Position numbers and translations under genes: made by a program. DNA of 64,000 bases from an uncultured Phocaeicola sp. (GTDB lineage Bacteria > Bacteroidota > Bacteroidia > Bacteroidales > Bacteroidaceae), in NCBI GenBank assembly GCA_947581855.1, contig CANPVZ010000007.1, positions 1 through 64,000 of the forward strand. The letters are read 5' to 3'. This document shows positions 1,404 through 19,690 of this stretch, piece by piece (positions within the stretch are counted from its first letter, which is position 1; every line of letters begins with the position of its first letter). The notes beneath the pieces are model-generated. The model saw nothing but the letters and a program-made list of their open reading frames with translations, did not search any database and was not told the origin of the DNA.

Positions 1404-2390
1404 AAAAGATAACTGAGGGATACTTCAATGAGATTACATTATTGAAAGTAATGGCCACATTCCTTATCACATGGTTTCATTTTAAATGGACAGTTCCAGA
1501 GATATTCTCAAATCTTTTCGTTGGGGGTGCGATTGGAAATACTTTGTTTTTTTATACCAGTGGATATTTACTTCATTTTAGGGGAGAAAAATTTCGAGGA
1601 GAGTGGTTACTGAAAAAGTATATTAGGATAATGCCATCCATATGGGTATTTACCCTATTTTCGGAAGGTAATCTTGGTAAATGGTATAACCTAATATATC
1701 CAACAAACTTTTGGTTCGTAAATGTGATTTTGTGCTATTTTGCCATTGTATATTTGGTACTTTTTGTTAGAATCCCTGCTTTTAGCAGGTTGAATTGTGC
1801 TTTTTTTAACAATCTGGGGGGGGGGTAAATACTTAATCAGCCTAATGTTTTTGGCTTGTGTAACTCAAATTATATGGTTCTATATTTTCATTTATCCTTG
1901 CGAAAAAATCGTAATGGATGAAGGCGGTTTTAAATGTTTTTTTTTCTTTTTTTTCTTTTTGTGGGGTTATTGGGATAGGCAAAAAACAAGTATTTGGCGA
2001 GGTAGCGGATATTCAGCGTTGCTGTTACCTATTGCGATAATCGTGTTCTTCGCTTATAAAAAATGGGCGTTGACATACATGTTTTTATTGTCGTTGCAAG
2101 TCTTTCTGGTTCCTGTTTTTTTATTTTTAGTCTTATTGAGCGCACGTAAGTTCGTTGGCTATTTAAATGGTTTGTCTTTTCCGGATTGGGTTAAGAAACT
2201 ATGCATTGTTATCTCCAATTTAACATTAGATATATACATAGTGCAGATAGCGTTGATAGATTTTATAATGCCTTTATTCCCTTATTTCCCATGTAATGTT
2301 GTGCTGACATTTGTTGCGATATGTGTAGCTGCTTTCTTTAACAATCGGATAGCTGCTTGGATTTCTGATAAATTAAACAATTACCTATGA
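1400..2390 (+). pseudogene. Acyltransferase 3 family membrane protein, split into two ORFs (1400-1828 and 1797-2390) at a G10 tract; possibly phase-variable OFF rather than dead
   Basis: N-terminal ORF 'ITEGYFNEITLLKVMATFLITWFHFKWTVPEIF...FFYTSGYLLHFRG' resembles acyltransferase 3; the downstream multi-TM ORF is in the frame reached by deleting one G; fused product would be about 329 aa. Confidence 0.8.
1816..1825 (+). repeat. Poly-G tract G10 in the acyltransferase gene
   Basis: Direct read: aatctGGGGGGGGGGtaaat. Confidence 0.97.
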
Positions 2391-6910: not shown

Positions 6911-7675
6911 ATGAGTTTAGAATATCGAAGTAAATTAAACCGATTACTTGTGTCTGGTAAGAAGAACGGACTCTTTTTTTCTGATTGGTTAAGGAAGAAT
7001 GGCTATTCAGATCAGTTGATAAGAAAGTATCGACAATCCGGTTGGCTTGCAACTTTGGATAAAGGGGTAATGTATCGTACAGGAGATTCATTGTCTTCAT
7101 TCGCTGCATTGTCTTGTTACAATGAACAATTGAATAAAGAGGTTAGAGTGGCTGCTCATTCAGCATTGGAACTTTTCGGTTTTAATCATTATGTCCCGAT
7201 GGGAAAGCCTTTGCTTATGGTAGCCTATCCTAATTCCAAGATACCTAAATGGATGTCAAGTGAAAGTTTTGACAAAACCATCAAATCGTTTAGCACTAAA
7301 ATGGTTGATGTACCACAAACAAGTATAGTACAGGCTGACGGAGTTGATGTATTGGTATCTTCTCCTGAACAGGCCTTTATGGAGTGTTTGCTTTTAGCAC
7401 CCGAACAATACAATTATATGGACTTATACTATATAATGGAACAATTAACCTCATTGCGTGCCGATGTGGTACAAACACTGCTTGAAAACATAAAAAATCA
7501 GCGAGTAAAAAGAGTGTTCCTATATATGGCTGAAAAAGCAGGGCATTATTGGTTTGATATGCTGAATATAGATGAAATAAACCTTGGCACATCAAAACTG
7601 CAATTAGTAGAAAATGGAATATATATAAAAAAGTATAAAATAACAATATCTAAAGAGTTGAACGACTATGAATGA
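6911..7675 (+). CDS. abiEi: Type IV toxin-antitoxin AbiEi-family antitoxin
   Basis: 254 aa; N-terminal wHTH, 'LLVSGKKNGLFFSDWLRKNGYSDQLIRKYRQSGWLATLDKGVMYRTGD', overlapping an AbiEii ORF. Confidence 0.82.
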   Translation: MSLEYRSKLNRLLVSGKKNGLFFSDWLRKNGYSDQLIRKYRQSGWLATLDKGVMYRTGDSLSSFAALSCYNEQLNKEVRVAAHSALELFGFNHYVPMGKPLLMVAYPNSKIPKWMSSESFDKTIKSFSTKMVDVPQTSIVQADGVDVLVSSPEQAFMECLLLAPEQYNYMDLYYIMEQLTSLRADVVQTLLENIKNQRVKRVFLYMAEKAGHYWFDMLNIDEINLGTSKLQLVENGIYIKKYKITISKELNDYE

Positions 7676-8582
7676 TATGTACAAAAGACAAGTAGCCCTT
7701 TTGATACGCATAATGCCATCGGTTTATCGTATCAAGGATTTTGCAGTTCACGGAGGAACGGCAATCAATTTGTTTCATAAGAATATGCCTCGTTACTCTG
7801 TGGATATTGACTTGACCTACATTCCTATCCAAGATAGAGAAGAGGGTTTGAGAAGCATTAACGAACATCTTAAAACTCTTAAAGCCAATATTGAGAAGTC
7901 TATTCCAGGCATTAAAGTCGTTCCAAAATACGATGTGTGGAAATTGCAATGTACACTCAATGGTGCAACCGTTAAGATTGAGGTTAATGGAACAAAACGA
8001 GGCATCATTGGGAACACTGAGGATAAGATGCTGTGCGAGAAAGCACAGCAAGAGTTCAGTATGGCTTGCAAAGCTCGTACTGTATCATATTCTCAATTAT
8101 ATGGTGGCAAGATAACAGCTGCGTTGAGCCGACAACATCCACGAGACTTGTTTGATTGTAAGTATATGGAAATATCTTCTTTCGATGATGTAAAAGATGG
8201 CTTTATGCTATGCTTGCTGGGTAGCGACAAACCTATCATTGAATCTTTGCAGCCAAATGCCATTGACCAAACCGAAGCATTGGAAAATCAATTCAAAGGA
8301 ATGTCGGATGTTGAGTTTAGTTATGCTGATTATGAAGAAGCGAGAACAAATCTAATAACCCAAGTAAATATAGCATTAACAGAATCTGACAAGGAGTTTA
8401 TCCTAACATTTGAAGAAGGTGATCCCGATTGGACTAAGTGCAGTGCAGGTGATTTGAGTAACTATCCATCAGTTAAATGGAAATTACAGAACATCAACAA
8501 ACTCAAAGAGAGTAACCCACAGAAGCACAAACAAGGAATAGAGCGGTTGATACAGTTCTTTGGAAGGACAACTGAGGCTTAA
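7668..8582 (+). CDS. abiEii: AbiEii/AbiGii-family nucleotidyltransferase toxin
   Basis: 304 aa; 'DFAVHGGTAINLFHKNMPRYSVDIDLTYI' nucleotidyltransferase motif, 'LYGGKITAALSRQHPRDLFDCKYM'; overlaps abiEi by 8 nt. Confidence 0.88.
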   Translation: MNDMYKRQVALLIRIMPSVYRIKDFAVHGGTAINLFHKNMPRYSVDIDLTYIPIQDREEGLRSINEHLKTLKANIEKSIPGIKVVPKYDVWKLQCTLNGATVKIEVNGTKRGIIGNTEDKMLCEKAQQEFSMACKARTVSYSQLYGGKITAALSRQHPRDLFDCKYMEISSFDDVKDGFMLCLLGSDKPIIESLQPNAIDQTEALENQFKGMSDVEFSYADYEEARTNLITQVNIALTESDKEFILTFEEGDPDWTKCSAGDLSNYPSVKWKLQNINKLKESNPQKHKQGIERLIQFFGRTTEA

Positions 8583-9086: not shown

Positions 9087-10520
9087 TTATTCCGTTAAAA
9101 TGTTTCCACGTACTCTTTTATGATCCAATGTGGTGAAATGCGGTGACAACTCTCTTCCATTGCTCCTAAAGGATGCGATGCCAGTTTCAGTAGTAGGCAG
9201 GTTCAGAGAACCATTGAGAATCCATTGGATGGTATATTTAAGCAAGGCATCGCTTTGCGGGTCTCCGATTTCTCCGAGAGGATCTGCATTGGAAAATTCA
9301 TTGTAAAAATAATCTGGTCGGATACCGTTTTCGTAATCCGATTGGTTCTTGCAATTATATATGGTTGCTACGATAGGGTGCAAAGTAAAATTATACGGTG
9401 AAGCGATTCCTAGAGAAGCTACGTTTTTACCCACAGTGGTGGAACCGATTACCTTAACGTCCATATAAGGTTTCAAGCAGTAAATGGTTGTTTCGGAAGC
9501 CGAGGCGGTATATGGGCTTGTTATGACATATAAAGTATTGAGGCCCAAATTTTGAGCTGCCAGATTCGCATTCAGATGGGACGTTGTATTGCGGTTGGTA
9601 TTCAGGTTGTTATATTGTAATGAAAAGAGGGGCTGTCCTAGATTTTGGACAGGAGCCAGAAAACTGCACAACTCGGTGATGCAGCTCATTACTCCTCCTG
9701 GATTATAACGCAGGTCGAGAATGAATTCGTTTACGCCCCGACTTTTGAAATCGCCGAAAATCTGTTTCATCTTCTCGTTATATTCCGTACTTGTGTCGGT
9801 GAGTCCGGGAGAATAATGATCATACATCAGGTAGCCGATATTTTTTCCCGATTGGCTGAATACCTCTACTTTATAGAAAGGGTTGCTGGTTACTTGTCGG
9901 GAAGCTCCTATCTCCAGAGTAGTCTCTTGGCCCCAGCTTAATACGATTTCTCCTTCTTCTGTAGTGGAGTTCAAACTCGCGGTGGTGAGTGTTGTAGCGC
10001 CTCCCTGCAATAGATAACCGTAATTGTTATCTGTCACATTTATTCCCCTTACTTTAAGAATCCAGTCACCCCGTTTTAAACCTGCTTCATCAGCAGGAGA
10101 ATCGGGGAGGACGAACAATACGCGTGCCATTTTATGGGCGGTAGTGCCTGTAGGGTCATTGTATATCATGAAGTCGAATCCATAGGATGAAGTTTCGTCG
10201 ATAAGCAAGGAGTTATCCGTTGCCGAGTTATCCGTTTTGTCACTCTCAAAATATGAAAAATGGTCTCCTTCTCCGTCACGGCATTTGGTGGAAAGCAGAC
10301 TTTCAAAAAATTCTTTAGGCTCGGCAAAATAATTCTCTTCTTTTACTGTCGGCATATCATAATACCATAGATAGATATTTTGCATTTGTTGCTCAATCCA
10401 CCGATCTTCCTGTGTCAGTTCGGCGTATTCTCCGCTACGGTCTTCTCCGCAGGAAGCGAAAATAAATAAAACAACGACAGTACACAGCCGGATAAAAGAG
10501 TATTTAGAGATTCGATTCAT
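9087..10520 (-). CDS. S41 family (C-terminal processing) peptidase lipoprotein with PDZ domain
   Basis: 477 aa; lipobox 'VLFIFASCGE', PDZ 'VLPDSPADEAGLKRGDWILKVRG', S41 'FILDLRYNPGG...VITSPYTASASE'. Confidence 0.9.
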   Translation of the reverse strand: MNRISKYSFIRLCTVVVLFIFASCGEDRSGEYAELTQEDRWIEQQMQNIYLWYYDMPTVKEENYFAEPKEFFESLLSTKCRDGEGDHFSYFESDKTDNSATDNSLLIDETSSYGFDFMIYNDPTGTTAHKMARVLFVLPDSPADEAGLKRGDWILKVRGINVTDNNYGYLLQGGATTLTTASLNSTTEEGEIVLSWGQETTLEIGASRQVTSNPFYKVEVFSQSGKNIGYLMYDHYSPGLTDTSTEYNEKMKQIFGDFKSRGVNEFILDLRYNPGGVMSCITELCSFLAPVQNLGQPLFSLQYNNLNTNRNTTSHLNANLAAQNLGLNTLYVITSPYTASASETTIYCLKPYMDVKVIGSTTVGKNVASLGIASPYNFTLHPIVATIYNCKNQSDYENGIRPDYFYNEFSNADPLGEIGDPQSDALLKYTIQWILNGSLNLPTTETGIASFRSNGRELSPHFTTLDHKRVRGNILTE

Positions 10521-10658: not shown

Positions 10659-10667
10659 GGGGGGGGG
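10659..10667 (+). repeat. Poly-G tract G9, intergenic
   Basis: Direct read: gtgtggctGGGGGGGGGtaatttttattcatatTATCTTTGcaag. Confidence 0.95.
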
Positions 10668-10964: not shown

Positions 10965-12902
10965 TTATTTTGTTTTTTCTGTGCCTGACGGAAAATAATT
11001 CCGTGCTTTTCCTTTCAATTCTATTTCCGGACGGACGGATGCTGCCTGTTCTTCGCTGATAACCCCGTGTTGTGCAAGTCGGTCGGTTAATAGTCGGTAA
11101 TACCCTGCCAGATTTTCTTTTAATTTCATGTCATCGGTAAAAGATCTTTTGAAATGTTTAGGGCTTGGAATAATGTGTGCCAGAAAGATACACTCTTCCA
11201 AAGTTAGTTGTGAGGGACGTTTGGCAAAATAGAATTCGGCGGCTTCATGTACTCCGTAAATCATGGGTCCCCATTCTATTATATTAAGGTATACTTCGAA
11301 CATGCGGCTTTTCGAAGTGAGCCGTTCGTTTTCTATCAGCCATACAATCAAAGCTTCTTCCAGTTTGCGCGCTATGTTTTTATGGCGGTTAAGGAATACA
11401 TTTTTTATCAGTTGCATGGAAATGGTGCTTCCGCCGCGGGCAAACCTTTTTTCTTTTAAATCCTGTATGAGTGCTTCGCGCATGGCATCCGGCAGGAAAC
11501 CGCGATGATAGAAAAATGCGTTGTCTTCGCTTTGCATTACAGTCTTTTGTAATAAGAGCGGAATACTGTCTAAGGGTGTGAAATGTTCCCACGAGGGGCC
11601 TATGGGAAAGGTACGCACCGGCTGGTCGTGTTCGTACGCCGTATATGCAAATTCCCCCGACATCTTTCGTAAATCGGTAGCGCCAAAATGTTCTATGCGG
11701 AAATCTTTCTTGTACAGTTCCGATTCGAATTTCAAACTGTCTAATTCGGCAAAATCCACATCGAAGAAGAAATGGTAGGCCAGTTGTCCGCTGGTTTGCA
11801 GTCCCGTCAGATTGTTGAACAATCCGTTAGGCAACGAGTTGAACAACTCTTGTGCCGGAAACCATTCTTTATTGACAGAGGCGGTGAAATGCCAAAGGCT
11901 GTCGTGTTTCTCCGCTTTGAGATAGGGATGAAATTTTAAATGATTGAATGAAACTTCGCTTATGCTGTCAAGCTCGATACTGTGCGAGGTCAAGTTCAGT
12001 TGATAATCGATAGCTCCACGGTTAAGGTTGATTGTTTCAGGTGAAAGTGAAGCATGATATACTTGCAAACCGTCTATTTGAGCTTTACCTTGCAGAGAGG
12101 TCCGGTTGGCAACGTTACTTTTGTGTGTCATACTGCAAGTTAAACTGTCGAAGGTAACCTCGGCACCCCATTTGCGGCGGATGTAGGGAAGAGTAATATG
12201 TTTCTTTTCCGTGGCATAAAGTTTGATGTGTATATGCCGTGTATGCCGATTCAGTTCGCCGGCGGTATTCCAATGCTGGCAAAGCGTATCTTCGCGGATG
12301 CATAGTTCGCTTTGGAAATGATTGTCGGCAATTCGGAAATAAGGAATGGTACAGGTTACGAAATTTTCATCTTTCCGTTCGCAGACGCATATGTTGTTCA
12401 ATGTCCCGTTTTCGGGTAACAGATTATAAAGGAGAGAAACCACACTGTCCGTTCGGGCGGCATAATTATTACCCGTAGACTTATTCGTCGGTTGGGCTAT
12501 ATTCCGGCGGTTTGGCATAAACAAGAAATCATAATTGGCAAGAGAATCTTGTCGGATAAACGACAGAACCAATCCGTCCATATCTGTCCGGTCTACGTTG
12601 AACTCTCCCCATATCATGTTCCATAAGTCGAATTTTACTCGTAATGATTGTAAGGTAAGTAGGGTGTCTCGTTCGGCTGGGACTACCGATAACCCCATCA
12701 GATTAACACAGTTGATTCCGTCGAGTTGTAATTGGCGGTAACGAATATCCAGTTGGTAAAGTTGTTCAAGCTGTTTAATCCGTTCTTTTGCGATGTGCCG
12801 TAACAGCACATTACGGTTGAGATAGATACCGGCTATGAATATCAGAAGAAATCCGATAGCGAAAGCTACTTTTTTAGGAAGCAGTTTAAAGTAGTTTCTC
12901 AT
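10965..12902 (-). CDS. Membrane GT51 transglycosylase with AsmA-like N-terminal region
   Basis: 645 aa; GT51 'KTVMQSEDNAFFYHRGF...RGGSTISMQLIKNVFLNRHKNIARKLEEALIVWLIE...EVYLNIIEWG' at the C-terminus; about 400 aa N-terminal region; no transpeptidase. Confidence 0.88.
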   Translation of the reverse strand: MRNYFKLLPKKVAFAIGFLLIFIAGIYLNRNVLLRHIAKERIKQLEQLYQLDIRYRQLQLDGINCVNLMGLSVVPAERDTLLTLQSLRVKFDLWNMIWGEFNVDRTDMDGLVLSFIRQDSLANYDFLFMPNRRNIAQPTNKSTGNNYAARTDSVVSLLYNLLPENGTLNNICVCERKDENFVTCTIPYFRIADNHFQSELCIREDTLCQHWNTAGELNRHTRHIHIKLYATEKKHITLPYIRRKWGAEVTFDSLTCSMTHKSNVANRTSLQGKAQIDGLQVYHASLSPETINLNRGAIDYQLNLTSHSIELDSISEVSFNHLKFHPYLKAEKHDSLWHFTASVNKEWFPAQELFNSLPNGLFNNLTGLQTSGQLAYHFFFDVDFAELDSLKFESELYKKDFRIEHFGATDLRKMSGEFAYTAYEHDQPVRTFPIGPSWEHFTPLDSIPLLLQKTVMQSEDNAFFYHRGFLPDAMREALIQDLKEKRFARGGSTISMQLIKNVFLNRHKNIARKLEEALIVWLIENERLTSKSRMFEVYLNIIEWGPMIYGVHEAAEFYFAKRPSQLTLEECIFLAHIIPSPKHFKRSFTDDMKLKENLAGYYRLLTDRLAQHGVISEEQAASVRPEIELKGKARNYFPSGTEKTK

Positions 12903-13281
12903 GAGGGAAGTGATATAGAGTTCCGGCCCATGCCCCAGCGAAAACGCATGCGATGCCTAAAAGGATGCTCAGGGTGATATAGAAACCGAAAATCGTGTAT
13001 TGGTTTTGACGCAATAAAGACAATGCTTCATGACTGAAAGTGCTGAAGGTGGTGAATCCGCCACACAGTCCGGTTGTCAACAGCAACCGCATTTCGGTGG
13101 TAAGGTTCCAGCGTGTGGATAAGCTGTAAAATATTCCAATAAAGAAACATCCCACAAGGTTAACTATGAACGTACCCGATGGAAATGAATGGAAGGAATA
13201 GTTTGCCATCCATCCAGATGTAAGGTAACGTAATGAGCTACCTATACCTCCGCCTATAAAAATGCATATCAGTTCTTTCAT
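12886..13281 (-). CDS. crcB: Fluoride channel FluC/CrcB
   Basis: 131 aa; 'GGGIGSSLRYLTSGW...FPSGTFIVNLVGCFFIG...GLCGGFTTFSTFSHE'. Confidence 0.93.
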   Translation of the reverse strand: MKELICIFIGGGIGSSLRYLTSGWMANYSFHSFPSGTFIVNLVGCFFIGIFYSLSTRWNLTTEMRLLLTTGLCGGFTTFSTFSHEALSLLRQNQYTIFGFYITLSILLGIACVFAGAWAGTLYHFPHEKLL

Positions 13282-13598
13282 TGTACGAATTACATAACAA
13301 AATCGGATGCAAAATTACTACTTAAATGGAGAGATTTGTTTCGTTATTAATAAATTTTAGATTTCTGTTTGTTCTTCTTTCCTATATAGTTTGCCGGGTC
13401 TTTGGGTAGGGTCTTCATCGTTTCAGGGTATTGCGTGGCGTTTTAACTTTACCGAACCGGGAAACTATCGTCAGAAGGCTTGTTTTAAAAGGAAATGAAA
13501 AAAATTGTGAAAATAATATTAAGTTGTACAAATTATATATATCTTTACCTCCGCTGAAACACACATTTCGGTAAATTATATTCGTTAACTCTATTATT

Positions 13599-16500
13599 AT
13601 GAAAAAAAATCAAACAATGGTGCGCCTAGTTATAGGTGCAAAAGGACGATGTTTCCTTATGGGAGGATTGTCGGCTGCTATCTTGTTTGCAGCAAATCCG
13701 GTGATGGCCGGAAATCCCATGGGGGGGGGTAAAAGTTCTGATTCCCAAGTAGTAAAACAAGTAAACACCGTATCCGGTACGGTTGTGGATGAAAATGGAG
13801 AACCGTTAATAGGGGTATCTGTATTAGTGAAGGGTTCTTCTCAAGGAACCGTGACAGACTTCGACGGAAAATTCTCTTTAAATGTGGCTGCCGATGCCAT
13901 TCTTAAGATTTCTTACATTGGCTATCAAACGCAAGAAGTAAAAGTAGGGAAGCAAAAGCTTTTAAAAGTGGCTCTTAAACCAGACACCCAATTATTGGAC
14001 GAGGTGGTGATTGTGGGTTATGGAACGCAACGGGTAAAAGACTTGACAGGTGCGGCTACAAGTGTCAAAATGGACGATATTATAGACGTCCCGGGTGCTT
14101 CGTTGGTGGATGCGTTGAGCGGACAGGTTGTCGGGTTATCGGTATCGGAGAGTAACGGGCGTCCCGGAGCTACCGGTACGTTCAAGGTTCGCCAGCCGGT
14201 GAGCTTTAACGATGCCAATAAAAACTTTAACCAACCGCTGATTGTTATTGACGACATTGTACAGGTGGATGAGAACGGAGAGCCTACCATGACGGCATTC
14301 AATATGCTGGATCAGTCGGAAATCGAAAGTATGACCGTATTGAAAGATGCTTCGGCGGCGGTATATGGTTCGCGTGCTTCGGCGGGTGTTATTTTGGTGA
14401 AAACAAAAAGAGGTACCCAAGGTGCACCTAAAATCTCTTATTCGGGTAAATTGGATTTTTCGGATGCGGTGAGCCACGCTAAAACGATGAGCGCGTATGA
14501 TTTAGGTGTGTATACCAACCGGATGTTCCGACAGACTGACCAAATCAATAAAAACAATGATTATGCCTATTATTTATATTCGGATGAAGAGCTGGAGGCT
14601 TTAAAAAGTTTGAATTACGACTGGCTGGATAAAGCATGGCATTCGGCAGTGTCGCAGCGTCATTCGTTAACGGTGAACGGTGGTTCCGAAAAAGTAACCT
14701 TTTTTGCCGGCGTAAATTATCAGGATCAACAAACCAATTTGGGCGATGTGCAGGATTACAGTAAATGGACTTTTCGTGCCGGAGGTGAAGTGAAGGTAAC
14801 TTCCGGATTGCGACTTTCGGCCAGTGTGTCCGGTTACAATACGGATAAGGTGGGCAATAATTTGCAAGTGTCCGTAAACCAGGGTCCTTGGGGAAATAGT
14901 AATGCATCGAAGGATTATGCCATGTTACGTCACATGCCGAAATACATTCCTATCGAGACGCAAGTATTCGATGAAGCTTCGGGCGAGATGCGAACCTATT
15001 ATATGTCGCCGTGGGGAGGCCCGAAATTGCTGGACAACAAACCTGACGCTTCGGTAAGCGGTTATCCGGTATGGAACTTCTTTGCGGATGAAGCTTCCAA
15101 GTCCCGTTCGCATGACAAAATGAATGGCTATAGCGCCAATTTCTCACTGATATATGATGTGCCGTTTGTGAAAGGCTTGAGTGTGAAAGGTACTTACGCC
15201 ATCGCTTATAATAATTCTCATGCGAATAAGTCGGGCGATTATTATACGCTGGCACGTGCGGGAAATACCAATGAACCGGGCAAACACTTGTTAGGGGAGC
15301 ACACAACTTGGAATTTAGTAAATTACGGCGATCCTGATGGGACGGATGTATCCAAGAAACCGTCCGTCTCGTATAAAAAACAGACCAGTAAAAGTGAATC
15401 GATGAGTTTAACTCTTTCGTATAGCCGTGTTTTCGGCAAACATGATGTAGCCGCCACTGCTGTAGTAGAACGCGGAGAAAACGAAGGTGATGATATCGCG
15501 CAGCTTTATCGCGGAATGGGCAAATCATACAATGGAGTAAGTTCCACTGCCGGAACATTGAGTACCAATGCTACCGATACCTATTATAAAAAGTACGAGA
15601 GCGGATCATTGTCCTATATCGGACGCGCAAGCTATAAATATGATAACCGCTATTTGGCGCAGTTCGTTTTTCGTTCCGATGCTTCCACTAAGTTCGCTCC
15701 GGAAAATTATTGGGGATTCTTTCCTACCGGATCGGTGGGATGGGTTGTATCCGAAGAAAAATTCTTTAAAAACAGCAAACTCTCGGGTATCTTTGATTTC
15801 TTAAAATTGCGTTATAGTTTGGGTAAGACTGGTAAAGACAATGTTTCCGCATGGTCGTGGTTACAAATTTATAACATTAATCCTACAGGCGGTTACGGAT
15901 TTGGTTCGATAGGAGGTCAGCAAACATCGGGTGCTATTATTAACGGTACAGCTAACCGAGATTTGAAATGGGACTCTACGATTAAACAAAATGTCGGTCT
16001 TGATATGAACCTGCTTAATAATCGTCTGTCGTTTACCACTGATTTTTATTATGATAAAACGGAAGATTTGATTATGATGATAGCCGACGATAACGAACCT
16101 ATCTATATCGGTGCCAAATTACCTTCCATTAACTATGGAAAGAAAAATGCTTGGGGATTGGAGTTCTCAGTAAGGTGGAGCGACAAGATTGAACAGTCGC
16201 TGGTGCCTGCGTGGGGTCCTGTCAAGTATTCTATAGGTGTGGATTATAGTGTCTCTTGGAATAAGACCGTGTTGGGTGATCAGCCGACATTTGATTATCC
16301 GTCGGAATTGGCGAACCAGAGTAACTGGACCGGTTATCACGGTATGGGCAGCACCTGGGGATTCCGTACATGGAAACATACCAGCAGTGGCGACGGTATC
16401 TTGCGTAACCAGCAAGATATTGATAATTACTGGAATTATCTGACCGAATTGGCTGAAGCTTCAGGTACCACTCCGAAGTTCTTGGATATCAGCGATAAAA

Positions 16501-17105
16501 AGGACTTGCATCCTGGTATGCTTGTGTATGAAGATGTGGCAGGAGATATTGATGCGGAAAACAAGACTATTGCCGGTCCGAACGGTGTGATTTCAAAAGA
16601 TCACGGGGAAGATTTTGTGAAACTGGCAAATAACCGCCGTCATGGTATCAACACTAAATTGCGTCTGCAATGGGGCAACTTCAGCTGGTCGGCGCAATTG
16701 TCTACTACGTGGGGAGGATTTACCGATTACCGTGGTTCCCAGACGAAAGCATCCGGTTTCATGTTCGGGCAATTCTCTTATATCAATGATATGTTCGATC
16801 CGGAAAGCAACCCGATGGGTAAATATCCGACCATGGCTGCCGGCAATGCTTATGGCGAAATCTCTGATTTCTGGCAAGTTTCTTCTTTCCGCATGTATGT
16901 GCGTAATATGTCGTTCGCATACTCTGTGCCGAAAAAATACTTGCAGAAAGTAAATGTAGATGCTTTATCACTTAGCTTGACGGGTAATAACTTGTGGGAT
17001 TTTTATAATCCGTATCCGGGTAACTTTATCAATATGTACGATGGTATTCGTACAGATTACCCGACCTTGAGAACATGGACATTGGCTCTCAACCTGACAT
17101 TCTAA
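13599..17105 (+). CDS. SusC/RagA family TonB-linked outer membrane protein
   Basis: 1168 aa; signal peptide, CarboxypepD_reg-like 'VSGTVVDENGEPLIGVSVLVKGSSQGTVTDFDGKFSL', TonB box/plug 'DEVVIVGYGTQRVKDLTGA'. Confidence 0.96.
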   Translation: MKKNQTMVRLVIGAKGRCFLMGGLSAAILFAANPVMAGNPMGGGKSSDSQVVKQVNTVSGTVVDENGEPLIGVSVLVKGSSQGTVTDFDGKFSLNVAADAILKISYIGYQTQEVKVGKQKLLKVALKPDTQLLDEVVIVGYGTQRVKDLTGAATSVKMDDIIDVPGASLVDALSGQVVGLSVSESNGRPGATGTFKVRQPVSFNDANKNFNQPLIVIDDIVQVDENGEPTMTAFNMLDQSEIESMTVLKDASAAVYGSRASAGVILVKTKRGTQGAPKISYSGKLDFSDAVSHAKTMSAYDLGVYTNRMFRQTDQINKNNDYAYYLYSDEELEALKSLNYDWLDKAWHSAVSQRHSLTVNGGSEKVTFFAGVNYQDQQTNLGDVQDYSKWTFRAGGEVKVTSGLRLSASVSGYNTDKVGNNLQVSVNQGPWGNSNASKDYAMLRHMPKYIPIETQVFDEASGEMRTYYMSPWGGPKLLDNKPDASVSGYPVWNFFADEASKSRSHDKMNGYSANFSLIYDVPFVKGLSVKGTYAIAYNNSHANKSGDYYTLARAGNTNEPGKHLLGEHTTWNLVNYGDPDGTDVSKKPSVSYKKQTSKSESMSLTLSYSRVFGKHDVAATAVVERGENEGDDIAQLYRGMGKSYNGVSSTAGTLSTNATDTYYKKYESGSLSYIGRASYKYDNRYLAQFVFRSDASTKFAPENYWGFFPTGSVGWVVSEEKFFKNSKLSGIFDFLKLRYSLGKTGKDNVSAWSWLQIYNINPTGGYGFGSIGGQQTSGAIINGTANRDLKWDSTIKQNVGLDMNLLNNRLSFTTDFYYDKTEDLIMMIADDNEPIYIGAKLPSINYGKKNAWGLEFSVRWSDKIEQSLVPAWGPVKYSIGVDYSVSWNKTVLGDQPTFDYPSELANQSNWTGYHGMGSTWGFRTWKHTSSGDGILRNQQDIDNYWNYLTELAEASGTTPKFLDISDKKDLHPGMLVYEDVAGDIDAENKTIAGPNGVISKDHGEDFVKLANNRRHGINTKLRLQWGNFSWSAQLSTTWGGFTDYRGSQTKASGFMFGQFSYINDMFDPESNPMGKYPTMAAGNAYGEISDFWQVSSFRMYVRNMSFAYSVPKKYLQKVNVDALSLSLTGNNLWDFYNPYPGNFINMYDGIRTDYPTLRTWTLALNLTF
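13721..13729 (+). repeat. Poly-G tract G9 in susC, just after the signal peptide
   Basis: Direct read: aatcccatGGGGGGGGGtaaaagt, encoding NPMGGGKS. Confidence 0.97.
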
Positions 17106-17142
17106 CCATTCAGTGATGTATAATTTGAAAAAAGAAAGAAAC

Positions 17143-19425
17143 ATGAAAAATAAAATATCAAAAGCATATATAGGTGTATGTTTACTGGTCGCTTTTTCTT
17201 CGTGCAGCGATTCGTTCCTGGAAGAGAAAAGGGATTATAACAACCTTACTACGGTGGACGTATATAGCGATCCTGAACAGGCTACGGCTGTGTTCGCTAC
17301 CATTTACAAACAGATTATGGAACTGTATAATTCCCCGTTTTGCGGTGCTGATCCGTTGATGCGTCAAGATCAGGGTACGGGTGGCAAACAGCATATTTAT
17401 ACGGAAGAGTTAGCCGATGGAGGTTTTAAAGACGGAAGGTATAACGGAACAAACGGTAAAAATACCAAAGCCGGTAACCATATCTCGAATCCGCCATATT
17501 GGAATGACCCCAAGAACCAGACGAAGAATTACAATAATTTCAGTCGTCGTACCTTATTCCCTACGGTGTATGTAATCAATAATTTCATTACCGAAATTGA
17601 TCGTTCACGCTCGTTGTGCGGTACGGAGCAGTTTTGGAATCACTTGAAAGGACAAGCTATTTTTACCCGGGCATGGCTCTATTTTGATGCGGTGCGTTTA
17701 TGGGGAGGTTTTCCTTACTATTGTACGGAAAATGATATGGCCGAAATGGGCGACCGTTCGCCGCGTATGCCTATTCAGGATTGTATCGACAAAGTTTGTG
17801 CTGACTTTGAAGAGGCTGCGAAATTGCTTCCTGCCAAATGGGAAGGAGAAGATTATGGCCGTTTTACCTCTGTGGCGGCTTTAGCCATGGCGGCAAGAGC
17901 AAGAGTTTATATGGCCAGTCCGGTATTTAATGCCAGTTGGGACAATCCCGACGGTAAACGGTGGCAAACGGCATTGGATGCCAGTTTGAAAGCATTGTCT
18001 GCCGCCGATGACGCTCAATACGGAACCAGCGTGACCGATATCGATTCGTGGGATAAGGCTTTTTATGCTTTCGACGGAACTGCGTTCAATCCTGAAGCTA
18101 TTATAACTGTCATGATGAATGATGATCCTTTGGTAGGCGGAACTTATAATAAATGGGAAGGTAAGATCCGACCGGGCGTGATAGCTAAAACCAATGCCAG
18201 CGGTATTTGCGCTCCCGACCAGATATTGAAGGCTTTTCCGATGAAGAGCGGTAAACCGGCTACGGAAGAAAATGGCTATGATGACGATAAATTCTATCGT
18301 AACCGGGATCCTCGATTTTATCGCACGTTTGCTTTTTCCGGTTGTGAGTGGCCGGGAGTGAATCAGCAAATCTGGCTGTATGCTTACAAATATGACGAGG
18401 ACGAGAATAACCGTTACCGTTATACGGACGGAAGTAAACAGGATGGAGGAGCCAAGGCTAAAAGTCGTGCCATTGTGTGGAAAATGTCAAATCCGGCCAT
18501 CCAGGCGGGAAGCGAGTCGACAGCAGGTACGAATGTATTGGAATACCGCTATGCGGAGCTGTTGTTGAATGTAGCCGAATGTTATGCGGCACAAGGAAAT
18601 GCTGGTAAATGTCTCGAATATTTGGGTAGAATACGTTCCCGCGTAGGTATCGATGCGGCTAATAATTATGGTTTAGGAGGAATTTCCGATCGTTATCAAC
18701 TGATTAAAGCCGTATTGAATGAGCGCCAAGTAGAATTGGCTTACGAAGGCAAGCGTTCGTGGGATATGCGCCGCTGGCTGTTGTACGAAGGAGGAGCCGG
18801 ATTTGATCCGAGAATTGGCGGAGGTTTCAATGATAACACCCGCGCTTATGATCCCGAAGGCGCTTGGGGAAGCGGTTGGAAGATATATGACGGCAAGGAA
18901 GGACGACCGAATTATACGAGAACAAACAATGTGCTTACCCGGTTAGGACTACCTCGTTTCTGCGGAACCAAACATACCAGTAAGATATGGGGATATGATT
19001 TAGATAATATTCATGCGGTACCTGAATATATAGGGACTGATCCGAACCATCCGTTGATTGACAATGTACTGTTGAAGTCGGTTCCGGGTATTAGAAGAGA
19101 TATGAACGAAGCGGAACGCGACGAAGCGTTCGACAGACTGGAAAATTTGTGTCAGAGCGTAGGTATCGAAACTTATGATCCTATTGAGAAAATGGGACCT
19201 AAATACGGGATGGAGTCCGGTACCAAAGAGGTAGACCAAAACTTCTTGTTTGCCTGGAGGGGTTGGTATTACATTTATCCGATACATTACGACATGTACA
19301 CAGTAGGGAAAGGAAACGAATGGATAGAACAAACCGCCGGTTGGATGATTGCTAATTCTAGTCCGGCAGGCAACAATATGGAAGAGCAGGATGGAACCTA
19401 TTTCTATTGTATGCCGGAAAAATAA
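17143..19425 (+). CDS. SusD/RagB family nutrient-binding outer membrane lipoprotein
   Basis: ORF 17113-19425, start probably 17143 (MKNKISKAYIGVCLLVAFSSCSD); lipobox; SusD-like 'RAWLYFDAVRLWGGFPYY', 'VLNERQVELAYEGKRSWDMRRW'. Confidence 0.94.
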   Translation: MKNKISKAYIGVCLLVAFSSCSDSFLEEKRDYNNLTTVDVYSDPEQATAVFATIYKQIMELYNSPFCGADPLMRQDQGTGGKQHIYTEELADGGFKDGRYNGTNGKNTKAGNHISNPPYWNDPKNQTKNYNNFSRRTLFPTVYVINNFITEIDRSRSLCGTEQFWNHLKGQAIFTRAWLYFDAVRLWGGFPYYCTENDMAEMGDRSPRMPIQDCIDKVCADFEEAAKLLPAKWEGEDYGRFTSVAALAMAARARVYMASPVFNASWDNPDGKRWQTALDASLKALSAADDAQYGTSVTDIDSWDKAFYAFDGTAFNPEAIITVMMNDDPLVGGTYNKWEGKIRPGVIAKTNASGICAPDQILKAFPMKSGKPATEENGYDDDKFYRNRDPRFYRTFAFSGCEWPGVNQQIWLYAYKYDEDENNRYRYTDGSKQDGGAKAKSRAIVWKMSNPAIQAGSESTAGTNVLEYRYAELLLNVAECYAAQGNAGKCLEYLGRIRSRVGIDAANNYGLGGISDRYQLIKAVLNERQVELAYEGKRSWDMRRWLLYEGGAGFDPRIGGGFNDNTRAYDPEGAWGSGWKIYDGKEGRPNYTRTNNVLTRLGLPRFCGTKHTSKIWGYDLDNIHAVPEYIGTDPNHPLIDNVLLKSVPGIRRDMNEAERDEAFDRLENLCQSVGIETYDPIEKMGPKYGMESGTKEVDQNFLFAWRGWYYIYPIHYDMYTVGKGNEWIEQTAGWMIANSSPAGNNMEEQDGTYFYCMPEK

Positions 19426-19502
19426 CGTTCGAGGGAATTTGATACTTCACTAAAATGTTTCAGGTTCTATGTAAAAACACATAGAGTCGTGTAATACATA
19501 GC

Positions 19503-19550
19503 TAAATAGATGGGGAGCTGCGCTGGAAAGTGCAGCTCCCTTTCTATTTT
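19503..19550 (+). terminator. Intrinsic terminator after susD
   Basis: AAATAGAtGGGGAGCTGC...GCAGCTCCCtTTCTATTTT. Confidence 0.75.
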
Positions 19551-19690
19551 GGTACTGTCTGGAATTTTGTCTCCGGTTACGGAACATGAGAATCCAAATA
19601 ATTTCTAACTTAAATCTTTCATCAAACCATATCTTTTTTCTACTTTTGTGAGCATTAACCAAACCTTAGTAATAAACAGAAACAAAATTT

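Follow-up and report, generated by a model that had tools for sequence, protein, structure and literature searches.

Phase variation in the Bacteroidales has been described mainly as DNA inversion (PMC11868660, PMC4747536). In Bacteroides fragilis, SusC/SusD pairs vary through a shufflon driven by the invertase Tsr0667 (Nakayama-Imaohji 2009, cited in PMC4747536 and PMC11868660). Switches based on poly-G tracts are known from other phyla. The poly-G/C phasome of Campylobacter, catalogued with PhasomeIt, has 53% G9 and 26% G10 tracts (PMC6321876). In Bifidobacterium breve, a G tract switches a sortase-pilus operon, for which polarity has been proposed (PMC9187656), and in Neisseria the haemoglobin receptors HmbR and HpuAB are switched by poly-G tracts inside their ORFs (PMC3786947). 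The literature searched, largely outside subscription journals, yielded no description of a poly-G phasome for the Bacteroidales.

The locus analyzed here lies in a 64,000-nt stretch of DNA (the window) from the 3.62-Mb draft genome of an uncultured Phocaeicola sp., assembled in 39 contigs. Judging from sequence, a run of nine Gs near the start of a SusC gene in this window is very probably a slipped-strand phase-variation (contingency) switch. Like the Campylobacter phasome, the genome holds dozens of G tracts that peak at lengths 9 and 10, lie mostly in ORFs and read ON or OFF by frame. In contrast to that phasome, it belongs to another phylum, its targets include SusC/SusD transporters and FecR, and N-terminal cassette exchange is probably involved. 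A directional flank (an A-rich block, about 7 nt, G9 and TAAA) is a feature of the tracts described here; no mention of one was found for Campylobacter in the available part of the same report (PMC6321876). As in B. breve, the switch belongs to a gut commensal, and its G tract separates the Sec signal from the rest of the protein in the first gene of an operon; the B. breve strain, by contrast, has two loci, controls pili and belongs to another phylum, whereas our set is genome-wide and includes outer-membrane transporters (PMC9187656). HmbR and HpuAB are likewise outer-membrane receptors switched by in-ORF poly-G, but they are single receptors of another phylum without a SusD partner (PMC3786947). 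The B. fragilis shufflon concerns the same protein family and likewise varies outer-membrane nutrient receptors of Bacteroidales stochastically, but it operates by site-specific inversion, whereas homopolymer slippage is proposed here.

The gene under study (13599-17105, forward strand) encodes a SusC/RagA-family TonB-dependent transporter of 1168 residues, with CarboxypepD_reg and Plug domains in Pfam and a TIGR04056 score of 749.9 bits against a cut-off of 368. It is followed on the same strand by an ORF for a SusD-family lipoprotein (17113-19425; SusD_RagB, 126.7 bits), whose likely true start, ATG 17143, lies 37 nt past the SusC stop codon. An inverted repeat with 26-nt arms and a 4-nt loop (19499-19554) probably marks the end of the susCD unit. 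With a spacing of 37 nt, a polar effect of SusC truncation on SusD is plausible. Invertase-driven SusC/SusD shufflons being known from B. fragilis (PMC4747536), SusC might instead be phase-varied by DNA inversion, with the G run incidental; yet we found no strong inverted-repeat pair around the promoter or the N terminus (12700-14100) and no recombinase among the Pfam-tested neighboring genes, which makes this explanation extremely improbable.

The original prediction placed a poly-G tract encoding NPMGGGK right behind the signal peptide of this 1168-residue SusC, and inspection of the sequence and frame bore it out. The signal-peptide region, identified by inspection of the translation, occupies 13599-13709, with a predicted cleavage at ...NPVMA|GNPM, and the nine Gs are at 13721-13729, all on the forward strand. 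The codons at 13719-13733 read ATG GGG GGG GGT AAA, so that the tract corresponds to residues 41 to 44, (M)GGG, followed by K45. An in silico frame check showed that one additional G yields ATG GGG GGG GGG TAA and a product of 44 residues, close to the predicted truncation after about 45, and that loss of one G yields a product of 50 residues. Either single-G change thus truncates SusC, as expected of a phase-variable simple sequence repeat, and G9 exceeds both chance and the 7 to 8 Gs that such loci require. A search of viral contigs for tract-length variants gave no match.

The proposed switch would operate as follows. At the current G9 length, translation would pass through the signal peptide and the short GNPMGGGK linker into the transporter, which is the ON state. 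If a G were gained or lost as the DNA is replicated, the frame would shift and translation would end at 44 to 51 residues, leaving no transporter (OFF); another slip would restore the transporter frame. Such slippage may occur in cells at useful rates and be reversible. In OFF cells SusD may also be lowered through translational or transcriptional polarity. The payoff would be variation of a surface protein that may serve as a phage receptor, as an antigen or in nutrient uptake.

Long G runs are far more frequent than chance allows. With a second-order Markov model built from the window, about 0.02 runs of at least nine Gs are expected in it, against three found: G10 at 1816, G9 at 10659 and G9 at 13721. 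Run lengths in the window reach 5 and then restart at 9 to 10, with none of 6 to 8. The first of these runs (1816-1825, forward strand), a member of the same set, lies within a polysaccharide cluster and splits an acyltransferase-like gene into 1400-1828 and 1797-2390; the gene reads OFF. The second (10659-10667, forward strand; C9 on the coding strand) precedes an S41 peptidase gene (9087-10520, reverse strand) by about 140 nt and is possibly a promoter-region or promoter-spacing element. An AbiEi/AbiEii type IV toxin-antitoxin pair is present at 6911-8582 of the window, near the polysaccharide cluster.

The whole genome contains 57 runs of at least nine Gs (39 G9, 17 G10 and one G11), 68% of the tracts being G9 and 30% G10. 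The length distribution is bimodal: among the runs listed for contigs C1 to C3 there are 25 G6, two G7, three G8 and 15 of at least nine. Runs of at least nine As or Ts are few (6 in 273 kb). Across 14 genomes of the same genus, the number of runs of at least nine Gs varies from 0 to 51, and most other members of the family have 0 to 10. The mismatch repair gene mutS1 is intact in 15 of 15 genomes of the genus; thus, loss of mutS1 does not explain the tract set.

Thirteen of the 37 SusC genes that score above the model cut-off carry a tract at the 5′ end, where about 0.2 would be expected. In 12 of the 13 it falls after the start, either ahead of the CarboxypepD domain or inside it, and in one (C21) it lies in the leader. 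The reading-frame check found five of these genes ON (the window gene, L041, L055, L064 and L071) and seven OFF with a long intact body downstream (L036, L042, L060, L061, L063, L066 and L068). Because the assembly is a draft, homopolymer errors could account for part of the OFF states. Tracts are also found in three FecR genes (L049, L054 and L062), each beside one of three further SusC genes, and in genes for glycosyltransferases, acyltransferases, an AMP-binding enzyme, cytidylyltransferases, CMP-sugar transferases, an SDR protein, a fimbrillin-like protein and an AraC regulator; most of these genes have surface or regulatory roles. The FecR genes are on contigs C6, C7 and C12 of this genome (G000), and the FecR anti-sigma gene of L062 reads OFF. 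If the FecR tracts beside SusC genes switch, whole SusC systems would come under indirect phase control. By a simple open-frame rule, about 20 tracts are non-coding. Composite T8-9 G9 runs devoid of the TAAA flank are present in non-coding DNA at L033 2230, L037 4008 and L051 2260.

Some glycosyltransferase and cytidylyltransferase genes have tracts at their 3′ ends (L056 2277-2285, L057 2238-2246, L075 3538-3546 and 4339-4347). At these sites one frame stops at the tract's TAA or a few codons on, and another continues for 60 to 78 nt until its end overlaps with the start of the following gene (AAAGGAGG...ATG). Such an arrangement may possibly provide phase-variable translational coupling.

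In sister species, homologous genes with roughly 40 to 90% protein identity carry tracts at equivalent positions, with lengths of 9, 10 and 12. The reading state can differ between them: L042 has G10 and is OFF and its counterpart L196 in genome G008 has G9 and is ON, and L197 of G008 is OFF and L189 of G007 is ON. This length variation at the same position was seen for other SusC tracts of the genome; the closest orthologues of the window SusC (L010 and L011) have no tract, which speaks against the slippage reading as far as conservation of this gene's own switch is concerned. The predicted poly-G ON/OFF switch is strongly supported by the genome-wide phasome, the fraction of SusC genes with a 5′ tract, the OFF copies with intact bodies and the positions kept between species. 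By comparison, we give a very slim chance to the view that the tract is an ordinary glycine linker that uses GGG codons by coincidence and does not switch. A short flexible linker after a signal peptide does tolerate Gly, and the nearest orthologues do without one. However, the decay of shorter runs predicts well under one run of at least nine Gs for the genome, the runs also occur in non-coding DNA and, as C runs, where they encode Pro, more than half of the tract-bearing SusC genes are OFF, and orthologous positions retain a run while their flanks diverge.

The tracts share a directional flank. In this genome, TA follows 68% of them and TAAA 51%, against 9 to 12% and 1 to 2%, respectively, after G3 to G5 runs, and A is common at positions -11 to -8. 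At the window SusC, the 3′ flank TAAA (13730-13733, forward strand) supplies one of the three frames with a stop codon and belongs to this common motif; the 5′ A-rich position (13710-13714, forward strand; -11 to -7 from the tract) reads ggaaa, a weak form of it. The pattern GGGGGGGGGTAAA is present 29 times in this genome and its reversal not once; the corresponding ratios are 23:0 for G007 and 12:0 for G009. TA follows 52 of 60 tracts in sister genomes, a set partly chosen from TAAA hits, and the same trend appears in 40 G007 and G009 tracts listed without a flank condition. Coding tracts show the flank most strongly; in the non-coding tracts of the genome itself it is weak (30% TA).

This directionality bears on the possibility that the tract states are homopolymer sequencing or assembly errors. 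G tracts are known to be difficult to sequence (PMC9187656) and the genome is a draft, but errors would yield neither so many runs with a one-way flank nor their placement at SusC starts, and G008, a sister genome nearly complete at 3 contigs, has tracts of the same kind; we thus consider error very unlikely. Another possible reading is that RNA polymerase slips, or the ribosome shifts frame, at G9, so that each cell would produce full-length and truncated forms together and DNA length would set an expression level instead of a clean ON/OFF state. The conserved flank is in its favor, and long G runs with a stop in one frame may be slippery. The upstream non-coding tracts (window 10659, L040 and L052), in contrast, require a role at the DNA level, and orthologues differ in DNA tract length, so we judge this mechanism unlikely compared with slipped-strand switching.

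As to the origin of the flank, runs that read C in the coding strand also carry it, giving (T)TTACCCCCCCCC; TA is present in 5 of 5 such tracts in this genome and in 3 of 3 in relatives, these three being classed by the open-frame rule only. Selection for a stop codon therefore cannot be its sole source. Growth of the tracts from random short G runs was ruled out as well: TAAA is as rare after G3 to G5 runs as given above, and TAA follows 0 of 20 G6 to G8 runs. Nor is the flank a general bias of the Bacteroidota, as 148 other genomes of the phylum gave 20 matches against 14 for the reversed pattern. We put forward, as a tentative and rather doubtful idea, that the tracts, rather than being plain slippage sites, all derive from one site specific to the lineage (A-rich block, about 7 nt, G9-10, TAAA) and recognized by a postulated factor that would create or maintain 9 to 10 Gs whichever strand codes, with site-bearing N-terminal SusC cassettes shuffled between paralogues.

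The N-terminal part of the window SusC has a history different from that of its body. Its nearest body relatives, on contigs C20 of G007 (L010, 66% identity) and C71 of G002 (L011, 65%), have an orthologous SusD (62%) but another signal peptide and no G run. The first 40 residues of the window SusC are instead 50 to 53% identical to those of L036, L063 and L170, and its CarboxypepD region 67 to 69%, but beyond it identity falls to 27 to 29%. Comparison with L010 shows the reverse pattern, 52% and then 72%. The changeover occurs 90 to 120 residues past the tract, at the CarboxypepD/Plug boundary (in 30-residue steps). At the DNA level, a segment from about 13584 to 14027 (forward strand), comprising the start codon, signal peptide, G9 and CarboxypepD domain, is 69% identical to the matching part of paralogue L036, and protein similarity to L036 fades near its end. 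These comparisons suggest that the window SusC probably acquired the switch through recombination in which SusC paralogues exchanged an N-terminal cassette, with transfer possible in either direction. The proposed check for mixed Gly codons in orthologous SusC N termini is inapplicable as framed, since L010 and L011 have another N terminus without a glycine linker. The ON/OFF reading of the original prediction is well supported. The tract is no isolated feature of this gene: it belongs to an N-terminal cassette shared among SusC genes and to a set of tracts across the genome that have their flank in common.

With a poly-G set extending over about a third of the SusC genes as well as FecR regulators and capsule enzymes, this gut commensal would have a second, simpler route of variation. 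Nutrient receptors, phage receptors and antigens could all be varied in this way, and the states would be readable from sequencing data. Through the directional flank that the tracts share and through the exchange of cassettes, the origin of such contingency loci becomes testable.
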